In this document: positions 13,601 through 23,384 of the stretch, in pieces
Position numbering within the stretch: position 1 is the first letter of the stretch
Layout: each line of letters opens with the position of its first letter
Origin: Kastovskya adunca ATA6-11-RM4
Lineage (GTDB): Bacteria > Cyanobacteriota > Cyanobacteriia > Cyanobacteriales > Coleofasciculaceae
Length of the DNA: 64,000 bases
Assembly: GCA_019359445.1 (NCBI GenBank)
Contig: JAHHHJ010000018.1
Coordinates: 1-64,000 of the forward strand
Direction of reading: 5' to 3'
Program-made: the position numbers and the translations under genes
Notes under the pieces: generated by a model
The model's input: only the letters and a program-made list of their open reading frames with translations
What the model was told of the DNA's origin: nothing
The model's database searches: none

Positions 13601-13776
13601 TTCGCTTGCTAGTGGGACATTTCACCTTCAATAATTAGTGCAACATCTATGTATTAATACCATTGGCGCGATCGCCTCAGGGTGCTTCTCGTTTCATTAA
13701 GATTTCTGGACACTGGAAAAACTCTTGCCAGACTAGTAGAGATTTTATACATCTCGTCGCCGCAGGAGATTGCGTA

Positions 13777-14439
13777 GTGAAGTATGACATCCGCTATAAG
13801 CCAGCCTTTAGTGCCATTTTCGTCACCTTGAACCCCGGTGAAAGCATCACCGCCGAGGCGGGTGCCATGACGAGTATGGATGCCCAAATTTCCATGAAAA
13901 CGGAGTTCTCTGGGGGCTTGATTTCAGGACTCCTCAAAAACTTCTTTGGTGGAGAATCCCTCTTCGTCAACGTCTTCACCAACAACACCCAACGACCCCT
14001 GGATCTGGTACTCACTCAATCCACCATTGGGGATATTGCCCGAATCGACCTCAAAGAGGGCGAAATTTGCTTTCAACCCGGTGCCTACATTGCTCATACT
14101 CCAGGGGTAAAGATGGGCTTGCAGTGGGCAGGTTTCAATAGCTGGATATCCGGTGAAGGACTATTCAAATTGAGGCTTAGCGGTCGCGGTGAGGTCTTCT
14201 TTGGTGCCTATGGCGGATTGACGCCCAAAACCATCAATGGGGAGTTTATCGTCGATAGCGGTCACTTGGTTGCCTATGAGCCGGGAATTCAAATGAAAGT
14301 CGGACTAGCAGGCGGATTACTGGGTTCGATGAAATCGGGGGAAGGCTTAATCAACCGCCTTTCTGGACGAGGGCTAATTTACCTCCAGTCTCGCAGTGTT
14401 GAGGGCTTGGTGCGGTATCTCCGCCCAAAAATTCGTTAG
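13777..14439 (+). CDS. AIM24/TIGR00266 family protein, first of three tandem copies
   Basis: 220 residues from GTG 13777, chosen because AGGAG sits at 13763-13767 with normal spacing and because the family homology begins at once (KYDIRYKPAF). A longer TTG reading (13663) adds a non-conserved leader. The protein is a beta-rich AIM24 domain with repeated G-E-S-L-F and G-E-G-L-F turns, lacks cysteines and membrane segments, and has the family C-terminus SGEGLINRLSGRG. Eukaryotic AIM24 is a mitochondrial inner-membrane organiser; bacterial function is unknown. Two paralogues follow. Confidence 0.88.
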   Translation: MKYDIRYKPAFSAIFVTLNPGESITAEAGAMTSMDAQISMKTEFSGGLISGLLKNFFGGESLFVNVFTNNTQRPLDLVLTQSTIGDIARIDLKEGEICFQPGAYIAHTPGVKMGLQWAGFNSWISGEGLFKLRLSGRGEVFFGAYGGLTPKTINGEFIVDSGHLVAYEPGIQMKVGLAGGLLGSMKSGEGLINRLSGRGLIYLQSRSVEGLVRYLRPKIR

Positions 14440-14468
14440 GGATTAGACGAAGATAGGAGAGTTTTTTA

Positions 14469-15146
14469 ATGAAAGTCGATATTTTACATCAACCGGATAG
14501 TGCGATCGCGCGGGTTGTGATGAATGCTGGAGACGAATTAGTCGCCGAAGCTGGCAGAATGATCGCCATGAGCGGCTCTATCAACGCCAGCACCACCCTT
14601 CGTCAGGGTAAAGGAGGCGGCATTCTGGGCGGACTGAAGCGGATGGTAGGAGGCGAGTCCTTGTTCATGAGCGTCTTTCGCTCTCCCACCAATGGCGGTG
14701 AGGTCTTCCTGGCACCGAAATTGATGGGCGATATTCTGCTGTATCCGATGACAGGAGTGGGTTTAGTCGTGCAGGCAAGCTCTTACCTCGGTAGTGCTTC
14801 CGGCGTGGATATTGACTTGGGATTTCAAGGATTCAAATCCTTCTTTTCCGGCGAACGCGTCTTTTGGTTAGACATCAGCGGCTACGGAGAGTTAATCCTC
14901 ACCTCCTTCGGTGCCATTTACGAAATACCCATCAACGGCGAGTACATCGTTGACACAGGTCATATTGTCGCCTTTGAAAAAAGCTTATCCTTTGAGATTT
15001 CCAAAGCGGGTTCAAGTTGGGTGGGTGCCTTTTTAGGTGGGGAAGGACTAATTTGCCGCTTTAAAGGTCAAGGTCGAGTATTTTGCCAAACCCACAACCC
15101 CTCAGCCTTTGGGAAGCAAGTTGGCTCGCAACTACCACCAAGATAA
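14469..15146 (+). CDS. AIM24/TIGR00266 family protein, second tandem copy
   Basis: 225 residues. Same beta-rich family as its two neighbours: AGDELVAEAGRMIAMSG near the N-terminus, GGESLFMSVF (about 69-78), GERVFWLDISG and GGEGLICRFKGQG near the C-terminus. It starts 29 bp after the first copy with a GATAGGAG ribosome site about 9 bases before ATG 14469, and is probably translated from the same message. The three copies differ enough to be old duplicates, suggesting a hetero-oligomer or separate targets. No catalytic residue is known for the family. Confidence 0.88.
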   Translation: MKVDILHQPDSAIARVVMNAGDELVAEAGRMIAMSGSINASTTLRQGKGGGILGGLKRMVGGESLFMSVFRSPTNGGEVFLAPKLMGDILLYPMTGVGLVVQASSYLGSASGVDIDLGFQGFKSFFSGERVFWLDISGYGELILTSFGAIYEIPINGEYIVDTGHIVAFEKSLSFEISKAGSSWVGAFLGGEGLICRFKGQGRVFCQTHNPSAFGKQVGSQLPPR

Positions 15147-15310
15147 GTGTGAAGTATGAAGTATGAAGTATGAAGGATGAAAAGAGTGCTGAGTGTTGAG
15201 TAGGGGAGAAAGTATGAAGTACGAAGTATGAAAGAGCTTACTGGTTCACCTCATCCCCTCATCCCCTCATCCCTTCATCCCCTCTCTTCTTTCCAACCTC
15301 CGTGTCCTCT
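15147..15310. repeat. Composite dispersed repeat, copy 1
   Basis: Contains in order: TATGAAG-type heptamers, a GAGTGCTGAGTGTTGAG segment, GGGGAGAAAG, more TATGAAG heptamers (15212-15236), and CCTCATCC-type octamers (15247-15285). The same module order occurs at 35608-35970 and, reversed, at 48181-48293. It splits the second and third AIM24 genes. Confidence 0.8.
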
Positions 15311-15363
15311 GTGCCTCTGCGGTTTATTAAATTCCTCATCCCTCCTACTCAGTACTGACAACC

Positions 15364-16059
15364 ATGAATGAAATTGCATACGAACTGGAACATTCCCCGG
15401 CTTACACCTCTGTGCGGCTTGATTTGAAAGCGAATCAATCGGTGTTAGTGGAATCAGGGGCGATGGCGGCGATGGACTCCTGGATTAACATCAAATCTAA
15501 TATGCGCGGGGGGTTGATGAAGGGTTTGGGTCGCCTAGTGAGCGGGGAATCCTTATTTATCAGCGAGTTTACGGCTCAAGGGAAAGCTGGGCAACTATAT
15601 CTTTCTCCTGGCATTCCTGGTGATGTTCAGCACTACCGCCTCAATGGCAACGCTTTGATGGTGCAGTCGTCGGGGTTTGTTGCCGCTAGTCCCACTGTTG
15701 AACTGGATACCAAGTTTCAAGGTGTCAAAAAAGGTTTCTTTAGCGGTGAGTCTTTATTTCTCCTACGGGCGACGGGTCAAGGGGATATTTGGTTTAGTTC
15801 CTACGGGGCAATTCTGGAGATTCCGGTAGCGGGTGATTATGTGGTGGACACGGGTTACATCGTGGCGTTTGAAGATACCTTGAACTACAACGTTGAGATG
15901 TTGGGGGGCTTGTCGTTTAAGGGTCTGAGAACGGGGATTTTAGGGGGTGAAGGATTAGTTTGTCGCTTTAAAGGGCAAGGTCGCTTGTGGATTCAGTCTC
16001 GCGAACTTTATACGCTAGTTAATTTCCTAAATCCGTTTCGTCCGACTAAGAGTGATTAA
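15364..16059 (+). CDS. AIM24/TIGR00266 family protein, third tandem copy
   Basis: 231 residues, beta-rich, same family as the two upstream copies: SVLVESGAMAAMDSW, SGESLFISEF (about 59-68), SGESLFLLRATGQGD and GGEGLVCRFKGQG. It is separated from copy two by 217 bp containing a composite repeat, and precedes the NACHT-ClpS gene by 51 bp, so it may be co-transcribed with the NACHT-ClpS and M48 genes. Start: ATG 15364. The family's conserved glycine-rich turns are intact. Confidence 0.88.
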   Translation: MNEIAYELEHSPAYTSVRLDLKANQSVLVESGAMAAMDSWINIKSNMRGGLMKGLGRLVSGESLFISEFTAQGKAGQLYLSPGIPGDVQHYRLNGNALMVQSSGFVAASPTVELDTKFQGVKKGFFSGESLFLLRATGQGDIWFSSYGAILEIPVAGDYVVDTGYIVAFEDTLNYNVEMLGGLSFKGLRTGILGGEGLVCRFKGQGRLWIQSRELYTLVNFLNPFRPTKSD

Positions 16060-16110: not shown

Positions 16111-18486
16111 ATGACTCAACAGCTACCTCCAGAACGAAGCTCTCAACCTAACATTGAAGATTTTTCTAGAGATTGTTACCGTAATCGTCAGGTTTTACTC
16201 AATAAGGTCAAAAATTACTGGCTTAAAGGAGTATTGAAAAAATCCTTATCCGGAAAGGGACGGATTGAACTGGGTTTAGAAGAGCGATGGGATACAATCC
16301 AATGTCCTTGGTGTGTGGCGTGGGAAACGACTGACGCACCGAGACAAATTTTGCCACCCCATACCAAAGTTATTGATAAGTTTGATGAACTGGGAACAGG
16401 GCGATCGCTACTGATTCTCGGTGAACCGGGTTCTGGCAAAACTACCACATTATTGCAACTGGTTCGTGAGTTATGCGATCGCGCCGAACAAAATACTAAC
16501 CAGCCACTTCCGGTGGTCTTTAACCTCTCATCTTGGATAGGCGAAGCGCAAACCATTAATGAATGGTTAGTTACAGAACTTTATACCCAATATCAAATCC
16601 CCAGAGTAACCGCTCAATTGTGGCTCAAAAAGCAGCAACTATTGCTGATGCTGGATGGGCTAGATGAAGTCAAAGAACAACAACGGGCATTATGTGTTCA
16701 AGCTTTAAATGAATTTGCCCAAGAACGCGGACAAACTGAGATGGTGGTATGTAGCCGCCTCAAGGATTACGAAATCCTCCCCGAACGTCTGAGGCTGCAA
16801 AGTGCCATTTACCTCCAGCCCCTTACCAGTGAGCAAGTGCATCGCTATCTCACGGCTGGGGGTGAGGAAATGGCGGCGCTAAGTGCCCTATTGCAACAGG
16901 ACACAACCCTGCAAGAGTTGGTGACGACACCTCTAATGCTCAACATCCTCACCCTCGCCTATAAGGGGATGTCGGTTGCAGACTTGCCAAGTTTAAACTC
17001 GACTGAAGAACACCGCAAACATCTGTTTAATGCTTACATCGAACGGATGTTGACGCGTCGAGAAAATCGCCAGGGGTATTCAAAAGCGCAATCAGTACGC
17101 TGGTTGAGCGAACTGGCGTTTCGGATGACTCAGCAGTCGCAAACGGTACTCTTGATCGAGCGTATTCAGCCCAGTTGGTTGCAACTCAACCTCAAAGACG
17201 GATTTACACTGCCTTTCTTCAGAAATGGCAAACGCAAAACCCCGGCTTACCAACAGTACGCCACTGGGGTAAGGCTAACGAGTGGTGTGCTTTGGGGATT
17301 AATTATCGGCTTATTCTGCTCCGTAGGTGGCGATTTAAACTTTGGACTAAAGTGGGGAATAGTCAGCGGCATAATTGTGGGATTAGGGACAAAGGTAGAA
17401 CAGATAAAGCCTGTTGAAAGCCTGAAATGGTCGTGGAGCAAAGCCCAAAAATTACTTCCTTATGGCTTACTTTGTGCCGTGGGGGTTGGGCTGAATGGTT
17501 GGCTGTTTTGGGGAGTGGTTACAGGGCTAGTTGTTGTAATGATTGGTGGACTTGTTGGATCAGATTTAGAAACAACAACGGTTCCTAATCAAGGCATTTG
17601 GCAATCTACTAGGAATGCGTCAGTTTTTGCTTTCATTGGAGGCATTCTTTGCTTGATGGGAGGAGCTGAAGTCGCCGATTCTTTGGGACAACCGTTGGAC
17701 ATATTAGTCTTAGTTGGGGGAATGGTCGGTTTAATCCTCTCCCTTACTCAAGGAGGTACAGCCAGTCTCCGGCACTTTATCCTGCGTCTTGTTCTCTATC
17801 GTCAAGGCTATGCTCCCTGGAACTACGCTGGTTTTCTCAACTACGCCGCCGAGCAGACTTTTCTACAAAAAGTTGGTGGGGGATATATTTTCATTCATCG
17901 TCTGTTGCAAGAGCATTTTATGGCGTTGGGAATTGAGAATTCTAGTCAGACGGTGGAGATTAATCCTGATGATGCCGAAGCTTATATTAAACGAGGAAAT
18001 GTCCGCGCTAGCCTTGGCAATTATCAAGAGGCATTAGCAGATTACACTCAGGCAATTCAAATTAATCCTGATTTAGCGGAAGCGTATGTAGGGCGAAGTT
18101 TAGCTTGCTTTCAGCTAGGAGATTATCCTCATGTAATGGAGGATTATCAGCAAGTTTTTCAACTGAATCCAACGCTGGCAAAAAGCGTTGCTTATCAAAG
18201 TAATGATTCTGAGGCGACGGAACTCAAATCGGTTGAAGAGGCTGACCAAGCTTACGAAGTAATTGTGCTAAATGACAGTTTCAACAGCTTTAATCATGTT
18301 GCTGAATGCTTGATGAGGTACATTCCTGGATTGACAAGCGATCGCGTTTTGCAACTCACTAAGCAGATTGATCAGGAAGGACAAGTAGTTGTTTGGTCAG
18401 GTTGTCAAGAACTGGCGGAACTGTACCGCCTGCAACTGAGTAATGCTGGTTTATCAATGGATCTATGTTGGCCGAAAGTGAATTGA
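16111..18486 (+). CDS. NACHT NTPase with membrane segments, TPR repeats and a C-terminal ClpS-like domain
   Basis: 791 residues. N-terminal region (about 10-60) is the one usual in cyanobacterial NACHT proteins. The NACHT domain has Walker A GEPGSGKTT (104-112) and Walker B LLMLDGLDE (about 178-186). Several hydrophobic segments lie between about 390 and 550, followed by the IHRLLQEHFMALG motif common in this group. Two TPR units span about 618-693. The last part (about 715-791) reads as ClpS: YEVIVLND (N721, D722), a helix ending in RYIPGLT, QLTKQIDQEG and a final helix ELAELYRLQL. ClpS delivers N-degron substrates to ClpAP/ClpCP. The pocket is altered: D36 of E. coli ClpS corresponds to S723 and H66 to D754. 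An M48 peptidase gene follows by four bases. The fusion assignment is by eye. Confidence 0.85.
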   Translation: MTQQLPPERSSQPNIEDFSRDCYRNRQVLLNKVKNYWLKGVLKKSLSGKGRIELGLEERWDTIQCPWCVAWETTDAPRQILPPHTKVIDKFDELGTGRSLLILGEPGSGKTTTLLQLVRELCDRAEQNTNQPLPVVFNLSSWIGEAQTINEWLVTELYTQYQIPRVTAQLWLKKQQLLLMLDGLDEVKEQQRALCVQALNEFAQERGQTEMVVCSRLKDYEILPERLRLQSAIYLQPLTSEQVHRYLTAGGEEMAALSALLQQDTTLQELVTTPLMLNILTLAYKGMSVADLPSLNSTEEHRKHLFNAYIERMLTRRENRQGYSKAQSVRWLSELAFRMTQQSQTVLLIERIQPSWLQLNLKDGFTLPFFRNGKRKTPAYQQYATGVRLTSGVLWGLIIGLFCSVGGDLNFGLKWGIVSGIIVGLGTKVEQIKPVESLKWSWSKAQKLLPYGLLCAVGVGLNGWLFWGVVTGLVVVMIGGLVGSDLETTTVPNQGIWQSTRNASVFAFIGGILCLMGGAEVADSLGQPLDILVLVGGMVGLILSLTQGGTASLRHFILRLVLYRQGYAPWNYAGFLNYAAEQTFLQKVGGGYIFIHRLLQEHFMALGIENSSQTVEINPDDAEAYIKRGNVRASLGNYQEALADYTQAIQINPDLAEAYVGRSLACFQLGDYPHVMEDYQQVFQLNPTLAKSVAYQSNDSEATELKSVEEADQAYEVIVLNDSFNSFNHVAECLMRYIPGLTSDRVLQLTKQIDQEGQVVVWSGCQELAELYRLQLSNAGLSMDLCWPKVN

Positions 18487-18489
18487 GTT

Positions 18490-19302
18490 ATGTCTTCTGG
18501 AACTTCAAGCGATCGCAACCCTCCTCCGAGTAACCGCCAACTACTGATTCTGCTGGGGCTATTTGCCGGATTTGTTGTAGTGGTCATCTGGTTGTTGGGA
18601 TGGCTGATTAGCGCTCTCATCTGGCTGATCCCGCCTAGCGTAGAGCGACAAGTGGGGGCGTTGGTGATTCCGGCATACGAGCGACAAGCTCCGCCTTCAG
18701 CCGCGCAGGATAGCCTGAATCAGCTTTTAGAGCGTTTAGAAGCCCAACTACCGCCGTCACAGGCAAAAAATCATCAGTATCGGGTGCTGTACGTGCCTCA
18801 AAAGACGGTGAATGCGTTGGCGCTACCGGGGGATGCGGTGGTGATTTATCAGGGATTGGTGGAGCAGGCGGAATCAGAAAATGAGCTAATGATGGTCTTG
18901 GGGCATGAGTTAGGTCATTTTGCTCACCGCGACCATTTGCGGGGGTTAGGACGAGGGTTGTTGGTGCAGTTGGTGCTAGCCACGTTTTTAGGGGATGGGG
19001 GTTCTTGGCAATCAGGTGCTGCTTCAATAATTACTGCCGTTAGTCGTGCGGAATTTTCCCAATCTCAAGAACGAGATGCCGATGAATTCGGCTTAACATT
19101 ACTTCAAAAAAACTACGGACATGTGGCGGGGGCAACTGATTTCTTTCAGCGCCTGGGTCAGCAAAAAGGAGCTAATTTAGCATTTTTATCAACTCATCCG
19201 GCACCAAGTAGGCGGGTGAATGAGTTGAAGCGCTTAATTAAGGAGCGGAACTATCCCCTGAAAGTGCGATCGCCTCTACCAAAAATGCTGCAAAACCTAT
19301 AG
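18490..19302 (+). CDS. M48 family zinc metallopeptidase
   Basis: 270 residues. An N-terminal membrane segment (about 18-46) is followed by a soluble domain with the zinc motif HELGH (139-143) and the downstream ligand in SQERDADEFG (E194), as in HtpX/Oma1/BepA-type proteases. The fold should sit on one face of a membrane, probably the outer side given the N-terminal anchor. It begins three bases after the stop of the NACHT-TPR-ClpS gene, so the two are almost certainly co-translated. Oma1-type relatives act in membrane quality control. The catalytic glutamate (E140) is present, so it should be active. Confidence 0.92.
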   Translation: MSSGTSSDRNPPPSNRQLLILLGLFAGFVVVVIWLLGWLISALIWLIPPSVERQVGALVIPAYERQAPPSAAQDSLNQLLERLEAQLPPSQAKNHQYRVLYVPQKTVNALALPGDAVVIYQGLVEQAESENELMMVLGHELGHFAHRDHLRGLGRGLLVQLVLATFLGDGGSWQSGAASIITAVSRAEFSQSQERDADEFGLTLLQKNYGHVAGATDFFQRLGQQKGANLAFLSTHPAPSRRVNELKRLIKERNYPLKVRSPLPKMLQNL

Positions 19303-20015: not shown

Positions 20016-23000
20016 TCAAGACTCCTGCCAGCCTAAGGGTTCAAATTCCTGCCCAACTTCTGAAATCCTAGTAGTCTGGGATTTTTTGCAATATTCAATG
20101 TATAGCCTTGCCGCTCTATCTTGCTCATTTTTGAGCAGAAGCTGCTGAAATATTTCCTGCGCTTGCACAAACTTTTTTTGATGATAGAGACTCACGCCTT
20201 GTTCAAACTCAAAATGGGTTTGGTTTTTGAGGCGTTGCACCTCATCTGAGTCACCATCGTACACTTCAAATACAGACACGGCAGTGGTTTTCCCTTTCAC
20301 CCGAACTCGTCCCAAGAATCGGTAGTTATATTGGTGAGAGTCGGCTAGCTGAGATAGAGTTTGTTCGCTAATTACAATTCCTGCACCATAGACTTTCGTT
20401 AAATCTTCCAGGCGAGAAGCGAGGTTTACCGCATCAGCAATCACGGTACTTTCCATCCGCTGTTCTTCGCCGATTGTTCCTAGCATGAGAGTCCCAGTAT
20501 GCAGCCCAATGCCGATCGCGATCGCTGGGTTGCCATCATCCATCCGCTCAACATTAAACAGCGTCACCTGTTTTTGCATCTCAATTGCCGCTTGCAACGC
20601 CTCATCTGCTGTATTGGGAAAAATCGCCATAATTGCATCCCCAATATATTTATCAATAAAACCATTGTGGTTGCGAATCACCGGGCCTACCCGTTTCAAG
20701 TAGGCATTCAGAAAGTCAAAATTCTCCTTGGGCGACATGCTTTCCGAAAGCGTTGTAAATGTCCGAATATCAGAAAAGAGAATCGACATCTCTTTTTGAA
20801 TTTGATCACCTAACTGAACATCCACAATACTTTCTTTCCCCAAAAACCTCAAAAACTCATAGGGAACGAAGCGGCTAGAGGCTAGATGTATTTTAGAAAG
20901 CCGAATATGAGTTTTGATGCGGGCGAAAAGTTCACTTTTTGAAAACGGTTTAGTGAGATAATCATTTGCCCCGGCACCAAATCCTTCTACTAAATCCGAA
21001 ACCTGGTCTTTTGCCGTTAGTAGCACAATCGGCAGTTCATGGGCAGGAAAATGTTGACGAATAATTCGACAAACCTCATAACCTGTCATTTTCGGCATCA
21101 TTACATCCAGTAAAACCAAGTCTGGCTGAAAACCTTTATCAATAATATCGATCGCTTCCACGCCATTAGTCGCTTGAGTGATGGCATACTTTTGCAGCGA
21201 TAGATGGTTGAATAAGACTTGCAAATTTACTGGCTCATCATCAACAATCAGTATTTTAAATTCTCCCTGAGTTGGCGTCGGCAAGTCTAACTGCTCCTGA
21301 TTATTATCGTCAGGATTGATGAAGGTTTCCATCAAATCTTTTAGCTTTGAAGCTTGAGGCAAAAGCTGCTTCAGATTAAATGTTGGAGAGGCTTCTCCTT
21401 GATAAATAGGTAAGGTAAAAATAAACTGAGAACCTTTACCAATAGTTGAGTTAACTCGAATCGTACCGCCATGCAGTTGTACGAGTTGCCTAGTAATTGA
21501 TAATCCTAAACCCGCACCACCATATTCTCTGGCAATTGAGCCATCGGCTTGTTCAAATGACTCAAAAATGCAAGTCAGTTTATCCTCTGAGATGCCAATA
21601 CCTGTATCGCTGACGGCAACTTCTAGATAGTCATTGATAACTTGAGCAGAGACTTCAATCGTGCCACTTTCTGTAAATTTAATAGCATTACTAACCAGGT
21701 TGTGCAAAATCTGCTGTACCCGATTCTCATCAGCATTCACAGCAGGAATATCAGGAGCGATGTTATTAATGACTTGCAAAGATTTTTTGCCGATCAGGGG
21801 AATAGAGAGAATCAAGACCACATCAGTAATTTCTCGCATCCCTATGGGTTTGGTTTGTAATTCAATATTTTTGTGATTAAGTTGAGAAAAATCTAATAAA
21901 TCATTGACGAGCTGAGTTAATCTTCTGCCGCTAGAGACAATCATTGAAAGATTAAGAACCGTTGCCTTGGGGAGTTTTCCCGTAGCGCCATCAATCACCG
22001 ATTCGGCAATACCGACAATTCCATTTAAAGGTGTTCGCAGTTCGTGGGAAGTATTAGCTAAAAACTCATCTTTGAGTTTATCTATTTGCTGTAAAGCGGC
22101 ATTCTTTTCTTCCATCTCTGCGGCGTAAGCATGTAGACGTTTACGCGCCTCTGTAAAGCGACGCTCCAGAATAATCCCCAAAAATCCTACAAAAACGAAC
22201 ATTCCCCAGTAATAAAGTTCTACATGCCAAGGGAAAATATAAAAAACATAGGCTAAGATATCGTGAATGGCAGAGAGGCAGAAAGCAGCAAATCCTAGTG
22301 TAAATAGTTTCGCTTCTATGTCTCCTTTAAAAGATTTGCCAATAGCAAGAACAATTAAAGTCGTTGCACTCACTATCGTTAGGATGTGATTGGGATAGAT
22401 TGTGTAATTCCAGGGGACAATACGGGTGCCTGCCAAAAGAAAAGCCATCAGGGCAAAACCTAGATGTATTTGTAGTAAGCGATAGACAATCGATTTGTAC
22501 CCTCTGCCAAAAATCTGCTCAAAGAAGGCGCAAACTCCGGCAGGGATTAAATAAAATGAAGCATATTCAATATATTTCCAAAATAAAAATTTGTTAAAAG
22601 TTAAAGGGATAATTTCTGTCCGGGCGATTGTATAGACCCCGACAACTATTGCCAAAAAAGCGAAGGATAAATATAGTTTTTGAAGTTTTCCTCTTAAGGA
22701 AACTAAAATTGGAAATAACCCGATGAAGACAAAGAAAAATCCGAAAATAACTCGATCGATATCTTTAATAATTAAGTTTTTAATTAAGTCAGGTTGAGCG
22801 CCAATCGTTACTTGATTGAATAAGCCAATTGCCAAAGTGGGATCATTGGCAGCATAAGCTTTGAAAAATAGAGTTTTCCCTTCAAAACCTGGTTCCAACG
22901 GAACAATTGGCCATTTTTCATCTCTAATTTCTGCCGCCCCAGAAGGCTCTAAATCGTAAAAAATATAGATGAGTTGACTATCGAGATAGGTATTGAGTAG

Positions 23001-23384
23001 GTAAGGAATACCTCGAATATACAAACTAGGGTAGGGCCATAGTCCGTCTGGTAAGGGAACGCGTAGCCAAATAAACTTTTCTCCGGGCGGAACGGAGAGT
23101 TTCCCCGGAACTTTAAAGCTTTGCCATTGAGAGTCTAAGGTGTCTTCCTGAATCCAAGTTGGCACCCCTTCAATATCAACAGGAGATTCGCCCCAGCGGT
23201 ACTGCCATCCTTGGGTAAGCTCAATCGGTTTTGAATTGATGGAAGGTGGCGACTGGCTAAGACTAGGGGGTGTCTGAACAAAAAGCCCGCTAAATAGTGC
23301 TAATAAAAAGGCACCAAAGAATAATACAATTCTGGCGCGGGTTGAAGCCAATGAAAACTTCATAGTTGCTAACGCCTGTGACAT
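20016..23384 (-). CDS. 7TM sensor histidine kinase-receiver-adenylate cyclase fusion
   Basis: 1122 residues. N-terminal signal (about 16-40), a periplasmic beta-rich 7TMR-DISM-like domain (about 50-190), seven membrane segments (about 210-405), coiled coil, HisKA with [10 protein letters not shown] (His about 443), HATPase, receiver with VLLDVMMP (Asp about 756) and a class III cyclase domain: FSDIRTFTTLSE (metal Asp), IDKYIGDAIMAIFP and DAVNLASRLE. The lysine and downstream aspartate favour ATP as substrate, so cAMP should be the product. A tail with one TPR-like helix pair ends the protein. CyaC-type cyanobacterial cyclases use a similar kinase-receiver-cyclase relay. Alternative start ATG 23363. 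Confidence 0.88.
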   Translation of the reverse strand: MSQALATMKFSLASTRARIVLFFGAFLLALFSGLFVQTPPSLSQSPPSINSKPIELTQGWQYRWGESPVDIEGVPTWIQEDTLDSQWQSFKVPGKLSVPPGEKFIWLRVPLPDGLWPYPSLYIRGIPYLLNTYLDSQLIYIFYDLEPSGAAEIRDEKWPIVPLEPGFEGKTLFFKAYAANDPTLAIGLFNQVTIGAQPDLIKNLIIKDIDRVIFGFFFVFIGLFPILVSLRGKLQKLYLSFAFLAIVVGVYTIARTEIIPLTFNKFLFWKYIEYASFYLIPAGVCAFFEQIFGRGYKSIVYRLLQIHLGFALMAFLLAGTRIVPWNYTIYPNHILTIVSATTLIVLAIGKSFKGDIEAKLFTLGFAAFCLSAIHDILAYVFYIFPWHVELYYWGMFVFVGFLGIILERRFTEARKRLHAYAAEMEEKNAALQQIDKLKDEFLANTSHELRTPLNGIVGIAESVIDGATGKLPKATVLNLSMIVSSGRRLTQLVNDLLDFSQLNHKNIELQTKPIGMREITDVVLILSIPLIGKKSLQVINNIAPDIPAVNADENRVQQILHNLVSNAIKFTESGTIEVSAQVINDYLEVAVSDTGIGISEDKLTCIFESFEQADGSIAREYGGAGLGLSITRQLVQLHGGTIRVNSTIGKGSQFIFTLPIYQGEASPTFNLKQLLPQASKLKDLMETFINPDDNNQEQLDLPTPTQGEFKILIVDDEPVNLQVLFNHLSLQKYAITQATNGVEAIDIIDKGFQPDLVLLDVMMPKMTGYEVCRIIRQHFPAHELPIVLLTAKDQVSDLVEGFGAGANDYLTKPFSKSELFARIKTHIRLSKIHLASSRFVPYEFLRFLGKESIVDVQLGDQIQKEMSILFSDIRTFTTLSESMSPKENFDFLNAYLKRVGPVIRNHNGFIDKYIGDAIMAIFPNTADEALQAAIEMQKQVTLFNVERMDDGNPAIAIGIGLHTGTLMLGTIGEEQRMESTVIADAVNLASRLEDLTKVYGAGIVISEQTLSQLADSHQYNYRFLGRVRVKGKTTAVSVFEVYDGDSDEVQRLKNQTHFEFEQGVSLYHQKKFVQAQEIFQQLLLKNEQDRAARLYIEYCKKSQTTRISEVGQEFEPLGWQES

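Follow-up and report, generated by a model that had tools for sequence, protein, structure and literature searches.

The window examined here is a stretch of 64,000 nucleotides of forward strand from the cyanobacterium Kastovskya adunca ATA6-11-RM4 (contig JAHHHJ010000018.1, positions 1 to 64,000), and its gene of interest encodes a single protein in which a NACHT NTPase domain, a hydrophobic region and tetratricopeptide repeats (TPRs) are followed by a ClpS domain. NACHT is a molecular switch resembling those of immune receptors, and ClpS recognizes proteins destined for degradation; the bacterial ClpS known so far is a small free-standing adaptor, whereas in eukaryotes the domain is integrated into ubiquitin ligases. 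The features of the fusion gene are as follows.

16111..18486, + strand: NACHT-transmembrane (TM)-TPR-ClpS fusion gene, an open reading frame (ORF) of 791 aa with an ATG start
16405..16851, + strand: NACHT NTPase domain, residues 99-247 (Pfam PF05729, E 9.6e-12, exceeding the cut-off)
16420..16443, + strand: Walker A motif GEPGSGKT, residues 104-111 (motif scan)
16639..16668, + strand: Walker B / NACHT signature LLLMLDGLDE, residues 177-186 (motif scan)
17269..17748, + strand: membrane region with four strong hydrophobic segments, residues 387-405, 465-483, 504-522 and 528-546 (hydropathy scan)
17860..17919, + strand: conserved stretch FLQKVGGGYIFIHRLLQEHF, residues 584-603; 24 relatives lacking TPR-ClpS stop shortly beyond it
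17974..18174, + strand: two TPR units, residues ~622-688 (Pfam TPR_1/TPR_2; helices in the full-length model)
18244..18483, + strand: ClpS domain, residues 712-791, with the Pfam match at 712-778 (Pfam, NCBIfam, tree and fold)
18271..18279, + strand: N721-D722-S723, corresponding to E. coli ClpS N34, D35 and D36, with the third position differing (alignment)
18370..18372, + strand: D754, at the position of E. coli ClpS His66; His in 10/12 fused domains (alignment)

An earlier note, made from this DNA alone, had described the gene as a NACHT-membrane-TPR protein fused to a ClpS-like adaptor domain. This layout was recovered by Pfam and the hydropathy scan, both Walker motifs that it called intact were located at residues 104-111 and 177-186, and every sequence motif that it quoted for the ClpS part is present in the 791-aa ORF. 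The NACHT match reached 45.5 bits against a Pfam cut-off of 26.7, TPR_1 was matched at E 2.2e-15, and a linker of ~25 residues connects the TPRs to the C-terminal ClpS domain. The gene is a genuine cyanobacterial NACHT (STAND) protein with hydrophobic segments that probably span the membrane. Their number and topology are unsettled, because the same hydropathy scan, applied to seven fusion proteins, counts between 2 and 6 segments.

The C-terminal 80 residues form a genuine ClpS domain. In the whole protein Pfam PF02617 was matched at residues 712-778 with an E-value of 5.6e-10 and 39.3 bits (cut-off 23), and the last 91 residues alone gave ClpS at E 1.7e-11 and no second Pfam family at E up to 1. 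The NCBIfam ClpS model NF009563 was matched at E 1.7e-30 with 104.9 bits, or 109 when the domain is scored by itself, both below the model cut-off of 117; the same model gave 128.4 for the fused domain of genome G118 alone, 76 for that of G392 and 183.5 for the standalone protein L002. Pfam ClpS was above its cut-off in 10/10 other fused loci scanned, pieces included, and a ClpS piece in G178, cut by an insertion sequence (IS), reached 22.1 bits, below the cut-off of 23. The nearest solved sequence is that of chloroplast ClpS1 (7d34, E 1.4e-7).

The predicted fold agrees with this assignment. Only a separate model of the ClpS domain was used, because the model of the whole protein (mean pLDDT 59.8, from 10 sequences) was fair to good in the NACHT part and poor in the membrane and ClpS parts. 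The best PDB matches of the separate model were ClpS structures (Foldseek E 2.1e-7), and all 38 of the 38 PDB chains with a Foldseek E up to 0.001 came from ClpS entries, as assigned by entry title or, for 4o2x, by molecule name, with ribosomal L7/L12 next. By VIA the best Z was 15.3, to 7d34 over 79 residues at 1.2 A; the first 25 rows (Z 12.3-15.3) were all ClpS entries, L7/L12 then followed at about 10, and residues 305-384 of yeast Ubr1 gave a Z of 10.9. The earlier note had staked its ClpS assignment on a meaningful match to PF02617 and a ClpS-like predicted fold, and both were obtained.

To determine the spread of the fusion, residues 530-791 were searched in 388 genomes of the order and then in 388 genomes of the class. 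Matches running into the TPR and ClpS parts were found in 10/388 order genomes: the window's own (G000), G042, G061, G064, G067, G118, G134, G173, G178 and G190, the last with two loci. In the class sample only G000 and G392 matched at E up to 1e-35; the G392 match ended ahead of the ClpS part, yet the G392 ORF closes with a clear ClpS domain (Pfam, 40.6 bits). G392 is the sole genome of its order, which is not that of the window. A profile search of the class gave matches in 254/388 genomes at E up to 1e-30, and among the top matches, which were those listed, G000 and G392 alone followed the model from end to end, the others matching only in ClpS. The order and class counts are not to be added since the samples overlap. 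Altogether the fusion spans seven families in two orders and is intact in six families, and it is present as one ORF in eight genomes (G000, G042, G061, G067, G118, G134, G173 and G392). An assembly artefact, or a chance read-through into a downstream clpS, is ruled out because independent genomes share this one-ORF layout.

Other copies are damaged. An insertion sequence interrupts the ClpS part in G178, the N-end of one G190 copy is replaced while the second copy is frameshifted, and the G064 gene is in pieces. In Hormoscilla SP12CHS1 (L018) only the N-terminal part is in frame, after which other sequence follows. The Hormoscilla NACHT-ClpS copies (L087, L088, L091 and L018) are decaying, through an IS in ClpS, a frameshift, a replaced N-end and an interrupted N-terminal part.

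The NACHT-TM core also occurs in relatives without the fusion. The protein was matched at E 1e-40 or better in 40/57 related genomes, as read from the best E-value of each, and the listed places lie in the NACHT-TM part; the 57/57 obtained at E 0.001 includes TPR and ClpS matches. The conserved stretch, searched with the regular expression FLQKVGGGY, was found in 25/49 loci, one of which is the fusion L007, and in 24/24 of the non-fusion loci the protein ends 7-18 residues past it. These tail lengths omit the 24/49 loci in which FLQKVGGGY was unmatched, including L011 and L047, which have C-terminal additions, and the fusion L093. Ten proteins were scanned with Pfam: N-end additions were a kinase in three, a caspase in one and AAA_35 in one, C-end additions were WD40 in one and Tll0287 in one, two had no addition, and one was the G392 fusion. 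Proteins such as L010, L016, L038 and L025, in which the same NACHT-TM core carries Ser/Thr kinases or a caspase at its N-end, belong to a cyanobacterial family of membrane STAND proteins that is modular in build. NACHT-caspase-WD40 proteins are known from cyanobacteria, according to the available parts of two reports (PMC2853523, PMC3501461).

TPR-ClpS was not found outside the fusion clade among the paralogues examined, and no N-terminal effector domain (kinase or caspase) was detected in the fusion proteins scanned with Pfam. As relatives carry sensor-type domains (WD40, Tll0287) at the C-end, TPR-ClpS is best viewed as an addition at the sensor end, and, as judged by domain order, ClpS occupies the sensor end of a modular switch. 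Named antiphage models were unmatched, EruA (NF058535) giving 25.7 bits of 1000 and DS8 (NF053861) 20.8 of 790, and no PADLOC model was matched at full length, the best match being partial with an E-value of 3e-6.

In a tree of 48 ClpS domains (84 columns, with several long branches, the G178 piece left out and standalone domains hand-chosen from those fetched), the 11 fused domains formed one branch with support of 100/100, nested among L002-type standalone domains and apart from the L001-type. We refer to the L002-type as ClpS2 and the L001-type as ClpS1, based on the fact that chloroplast ClpS1 resembles the L001-type by eye and that plastids have only ClpS1 (PMC7966870, in the part available); NCBIfam calls both just ClpS. 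Similarly, the NACHT cores of 10 fusion rows fell on one side of a branch from 16 paralogues (SH-aLRT 98), in a quick tree in which G392 is a long branch of unusual composition. Two TPRs and a duplicate of the ClpS2 domain were thus joined to the C-end of the NACHT-TM core, most simply in a single event. Two further ClpS genes are retained in 10/10 fusion genomes tested, while G392 retains at least a ClpS2, its ClpS1 not having been sought. Ordinary adaptor work is therefore covered, and the idea that the fusion replaced a standalone gene is ruled out. In G042 the NACHT-ClpS gene is followed, ~2.1 kb downstream, by a standalone gene for ClpS1 (L086 9118-14001).

The ratios of nonsynonymous to synonymous substitution (dN/dS) indicate that the fusion is kept under purifying selection. 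For the fused ClpS domain dN/dS was 0.24 (G118/G134), 0.17 (G190a/G190b), 0.13 (G042/G067) and 0.11 (G061/G067), the first value resting on 16 changes and the last two affected by synonymous sites near saturation, and the NACHT part gave 0.17-0.22 in G118/G134, G042/G067 and G061/G067. We omitted from this comparison the pair G190a/G178 (NACHT 0.62, TM 0.25, TPR 0.19, ClpS 0.58 over 32 codons), because the N-end of G190a is replaced and the G178 frame runs into an IS. Also omitted were the TPR value of 0.85 for G190a/G190b (46 codons at a frameshift edge), the TPR values for G118/G134 (0.32), G042/G067 (0.25) and G061/G067 (dS beyond the formula), and the TM values of 0.14-0.19.

Residues of the N-degron pocket and of the Clp-docking surface were compared, in E. 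coli ClpS numbering, among 12 fused domains, 36 standalone ClpS2 and 10 ClpS1. The pocket anchors N34 and D35 are kept in all 11 fused domains that hold these positions, the G178 piece lacking them, and position 40 is Phe in 12/12 fused domains, as in 36/36 ClpS2. Position 36 is D in five fused domains, N in five and S in the window. His66 is kept in 10/12 and replaced by Asp in the window and the G178 piece. The same Asp occurs in 1/36 standalone ClpS2 (G173, L111); this unfused protein also has Asp-Asp-Asp in place of Asn-Asp-Asp. The available part of one study (PMC8346999) describes, by homology model, a human UBR1 pocket that is conserved except for Asp263 (D263) at the place of His66, in a domain that reads type-2 N-degrons. 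An Asp at this position need not, therefore, mean loss of function, and we reject the change in the window pocket as proof of inactivity.

E. coli ClpS docks on ClpA through Glu79, Glu82 and Lys84 and delivers by means of its N-terminal extension (PMC12493166; PMC9663308, both in the parts available). Glu79 and Glu82 are both present in 36/36 ClpS2 and 10/10 ClpS1 but in only 1/12 fusions, that of the window; one or both are gone in the other 11. Position 84 is Tyr in all fused and standalone domains compared. The fused domain has no free N-terminal extension, being C-terminal and tethered to the TPRs. On or near helix 3, positions 77, 79, 82, 85 and 90 have diverged and the other helix 3 positions are kept. 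The window copy is the odd one among the fusions, its pocket rim altered and its docking acids kept.

We regard the fusion as a STAND switch that carries a novel, putative reader module. At a probability of about 0.42, we favor the interpretation that it acts as an N-degron-reading membrane NACHT sensor, over one in which it is an adaptor for ClpCP. It would then be a single-gene, membrane-anchored molecular switch in which ClpS is the ligand reader, binding exposed hydrophobic N-termini, that is, type-2 N-degrons of the ClpS2 sort (L, F, Y, V, I). The TPRs and NACHT domain would convert the binding or crowding of fragments into ATP-driven opening and oligomerization, and the response may travel through the membrane segments, since an N-terminal effector domain was not found in the fusion proteins scanned. 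The protein would thus resemble a nucleotide-binding leucine-rich-repeat receptor (NLR) that senses proteolytic fragments, in place of or alongside delivery to ClpCP. A fuller version is more tentative: a bacterial NLR-like receptor with the N-degron as its ligand, a built-in N-recognin that would respond at the membrane to fragments that host damage, phage or membrane proteases produce. The idea of a NACHT protein monitoring proteostasis gains plausibility from bNACHT25, for which sensing of phage runs through the chaperone DnaJ and which has been proposed to guard a host process (PMC12169576, in the part available).

Several observations weigh against a sensor. The gene is broken in 3/11 genomes (G064, G178 and G190), and thus dispensable in some, and fused ClpS is under weaker selection than standalone ClpS2, for which dN/dS was 0.05-0.06 (two pairs). 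Docking loss is unexceptional among near-invariant ClpS2 columns, 2243/20000 random column pairs being as low, and retention of the pocket is just mildly unusual (653/20000). We consequently do not uphold erosion of the docking surface as strong statistical evidence. The window copy, with both docking acids and an altered pocket (D36S, H66D), shows the reverse of most others. In addition, a cytosolic side for ClpS has to be assumed given the unsettled membrane topology, and no partner or operon was seen across all fusion lineages.

A rather doubtful alternative, although the best placed of those remaining, is that ClpS is on the effector side: NACHT would sense something else and, once active, would cluster ClpS domains that recruit ClpCP or N-degron proteins to the membrane, where degradation would take place. 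The conserved fold and pocket anchors are as expected of such an adaptor, as are E79 and E82 in the window copy and the presence in its own genome of four ORFs with Clp_N domains, candidates for ClpC or ClpB; ClpS1 and ClpS2 work with ClpC in cyanobacteria (PMC7966870, again in part). The earlier note had gone this way, suggesting that a signal sensed at the membrane could be coupled to targeted proteolysis by ClpAP or ClpCP. While the fusion layout on which it was based stands, we retain the coupling to proteolysis as one option, less supported than a sensor by reason of the position of ClpS at the sensor end of the family, the loss of one or both docking acids in 11/12 fused domains and the lack of a free N-terminal extension.

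Integrated domains of plant NLRs provide the analogue for another possibility, that the fused domain is a decoy or guard, a bait mimicking ClpS2 by which a phage or stress factor attacking the Clp/N-degron machinery trips the NACHT switch. The fusion of a duplicated host domain to a NACHT core, and the divergence confined to certain positions on or near helix 3, are both consistent with a bait, and bNACHT25 with DnaJ is a precedent (PMC12169576, same part). Nevertheless, we consider a decoy unlikely: PADLOC matches were weak and partial, in an analysis that did not extend to defense genes in the neighborhood of the orthologues. No phage factor directed against cyanobacterial ClpS is known to us, although no search was aimed at one.

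More improbable still is a turnover handle, by which ClpS would dock its own protein on ClpC and so keep the switch scarce or remove it after use. A fused adaptor could presumably recruit ClpC to its own chain, and the window copy has the docking residues for this, but most orthologues have lost these acids and kept the N-degron anchors, for which a handle has no need. Least probable is a passive passenger, a chance fusion kept by drift and without ClpS function, for despite the broken copies, the altered pocket of the window and the constraint weaker than on standalone ClpS2, the dN/dS of the fused ClpS is close to that of the NACHT part of the same genes and the fusion has persisted in seven families of two orders, intact in six.

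The earlier note knew of no described system with this layout, and we likewise found none in the literature matches listed. A NACHT-ClpS fusion is undescribed among the matches listed in full-text literature on ClpS and NACHT, which covers few subscription journals, and the matches listed for ClpS domain fusions and for NLRs with ClpS or ClpC describe, by title or abstract start, no such fusion. The nearest precedent is the L12/ClpS inserts in Bacteroidetes von Willebrand factor A (vWA) conflict proteins (PMC7159879, in the part available), which share an L12/ClpS-type domain inside an NTP-dependent conflict protein. In these vWA proteins of MoxR systems, however, the host protein and phylum are different, and the part of the source available calls the domain a multimerizing L12/ClpS rather than an N-degron reader.

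With cyanobacterial ClpS2 (NF009563; PF02617) the fused domain shares its fold, sequence clade, N34/D35 anchors and Phe at position 40. Unlike ClpS2, it forms the C-terminal part of a NACHT protein of 800 aa, has no free N-terminal extension and mostly does not keep both E79 and E82; the window copy has D36S and H66D and scores below the threshold of NF009563. Bacterial NACHT/STAND proteins, among them antiphage bNACHT and the cyanobacterial proteins that bear WD40, a kinase or a caspase, share the intact Walker A/B motifs and modular ends, and the closest NACHT paralogues share the TM core as well; the fusion differs in having TPR-ClpS, in the absence of an N-terminal effector domain and in that named defense models are unmatched in full. 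The third comparison is with the N-recognins UBR1 and UBR2, in which a ClpS-type N-degron domain also lies inside a large multidomain protein. Human UBR1 and the window share Asp at the His66 position (PMC8346999, in part), and yeast Ubr1 is a fold match (Z 10.9). UBR1, in contrast, is a ubiquitin ligase and the fusion a NACHT ATPase, whose 25 listed Pfam matches include neither a UBR box nor a RING.

The genes on either side of the fusion are the following.

13663..16059, + strand: three AIM24 (PF01987) genes directly upstream, at 13663-14439, 14469-15146 and 15364-16059 (Pfam)
18490..19302, + strand: M48 metallopeptidase gene, 3 bases past the fusion stop (Pfam PF01435, E 7.7e-28)

M48 was matched in 12/29 related genomes searched (11 besides the window's own), and nine regions were fetched. 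In 6/9 of these the cluster of three AIM24 genes and M48 is whole without the fusion, so that AIM24 x3 followed by M48 is a recurrent cyanobacterial gene cluster. L158 has just the third AIM24 gene and M48 before its contig end, the contig of L164 ends ~100 bases before M48, and in L157 AIM24 was unmatched within the 735 bases before the contig end. In the window the fusion separates the third AIM24 gene from M48; in two Hormoscilla genomes it lies immediately upstream of the cluster. Neither AIM24 nor M48 was matched in the fusion regions of G061, G042, G173, G118, G064 and the other G190 copy. Because the cluster stands without the fusion in relatives, and the fusion is found inside or upstream of it, we regard AIM24-M48 as context, not mechanism, and have set aside an operon function with these genes. 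Elsewhere in the window, 20016-23384 on the minus strand is a 1122-aa ORF that by eye resembles a membrane hybrid histidine kinase and seems to include receiver and adenylate/guanylate cyclase parts.

No viral relatives were found by a scan with the ClpS domain. A profile scan of viruses gave two loci with 30 and 28% identity, both standalone ORFs of 84 aa and neither a fusion (L143 2007-2261 and L144 1998-2252). These ClpS-like genes are situated just after a helicase-like gene, and the L143 protein has Asp at the His66 position in the alignment. They are possibly a phage ClpS or a decoy.

To our knowledge, the ligands sensed by most bacterial NACHT proteins remain open. The sensor candidate of the fusion has a well-known ligand class, and the question is therefore testable with peptides. 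As late as 2021, N-degron pathways of cyanobacteria were described as not yet demonstrated in vivo (PMC7966870, in the part available). A ClpS domain within a conserved NACHT ATPase is a candidate built-in N-recognin of bacteria, which joins N-degron proteolysis and NLR-type signaling. If the fuller, N-degron-receptor version is true, STAND immunity would be joined to the N-degron pathway, with the pocket of the window copy having acquired the Asp of human UBR1. Through the fusion, cells may be able to detect the breakdown of proteins or to influence it.

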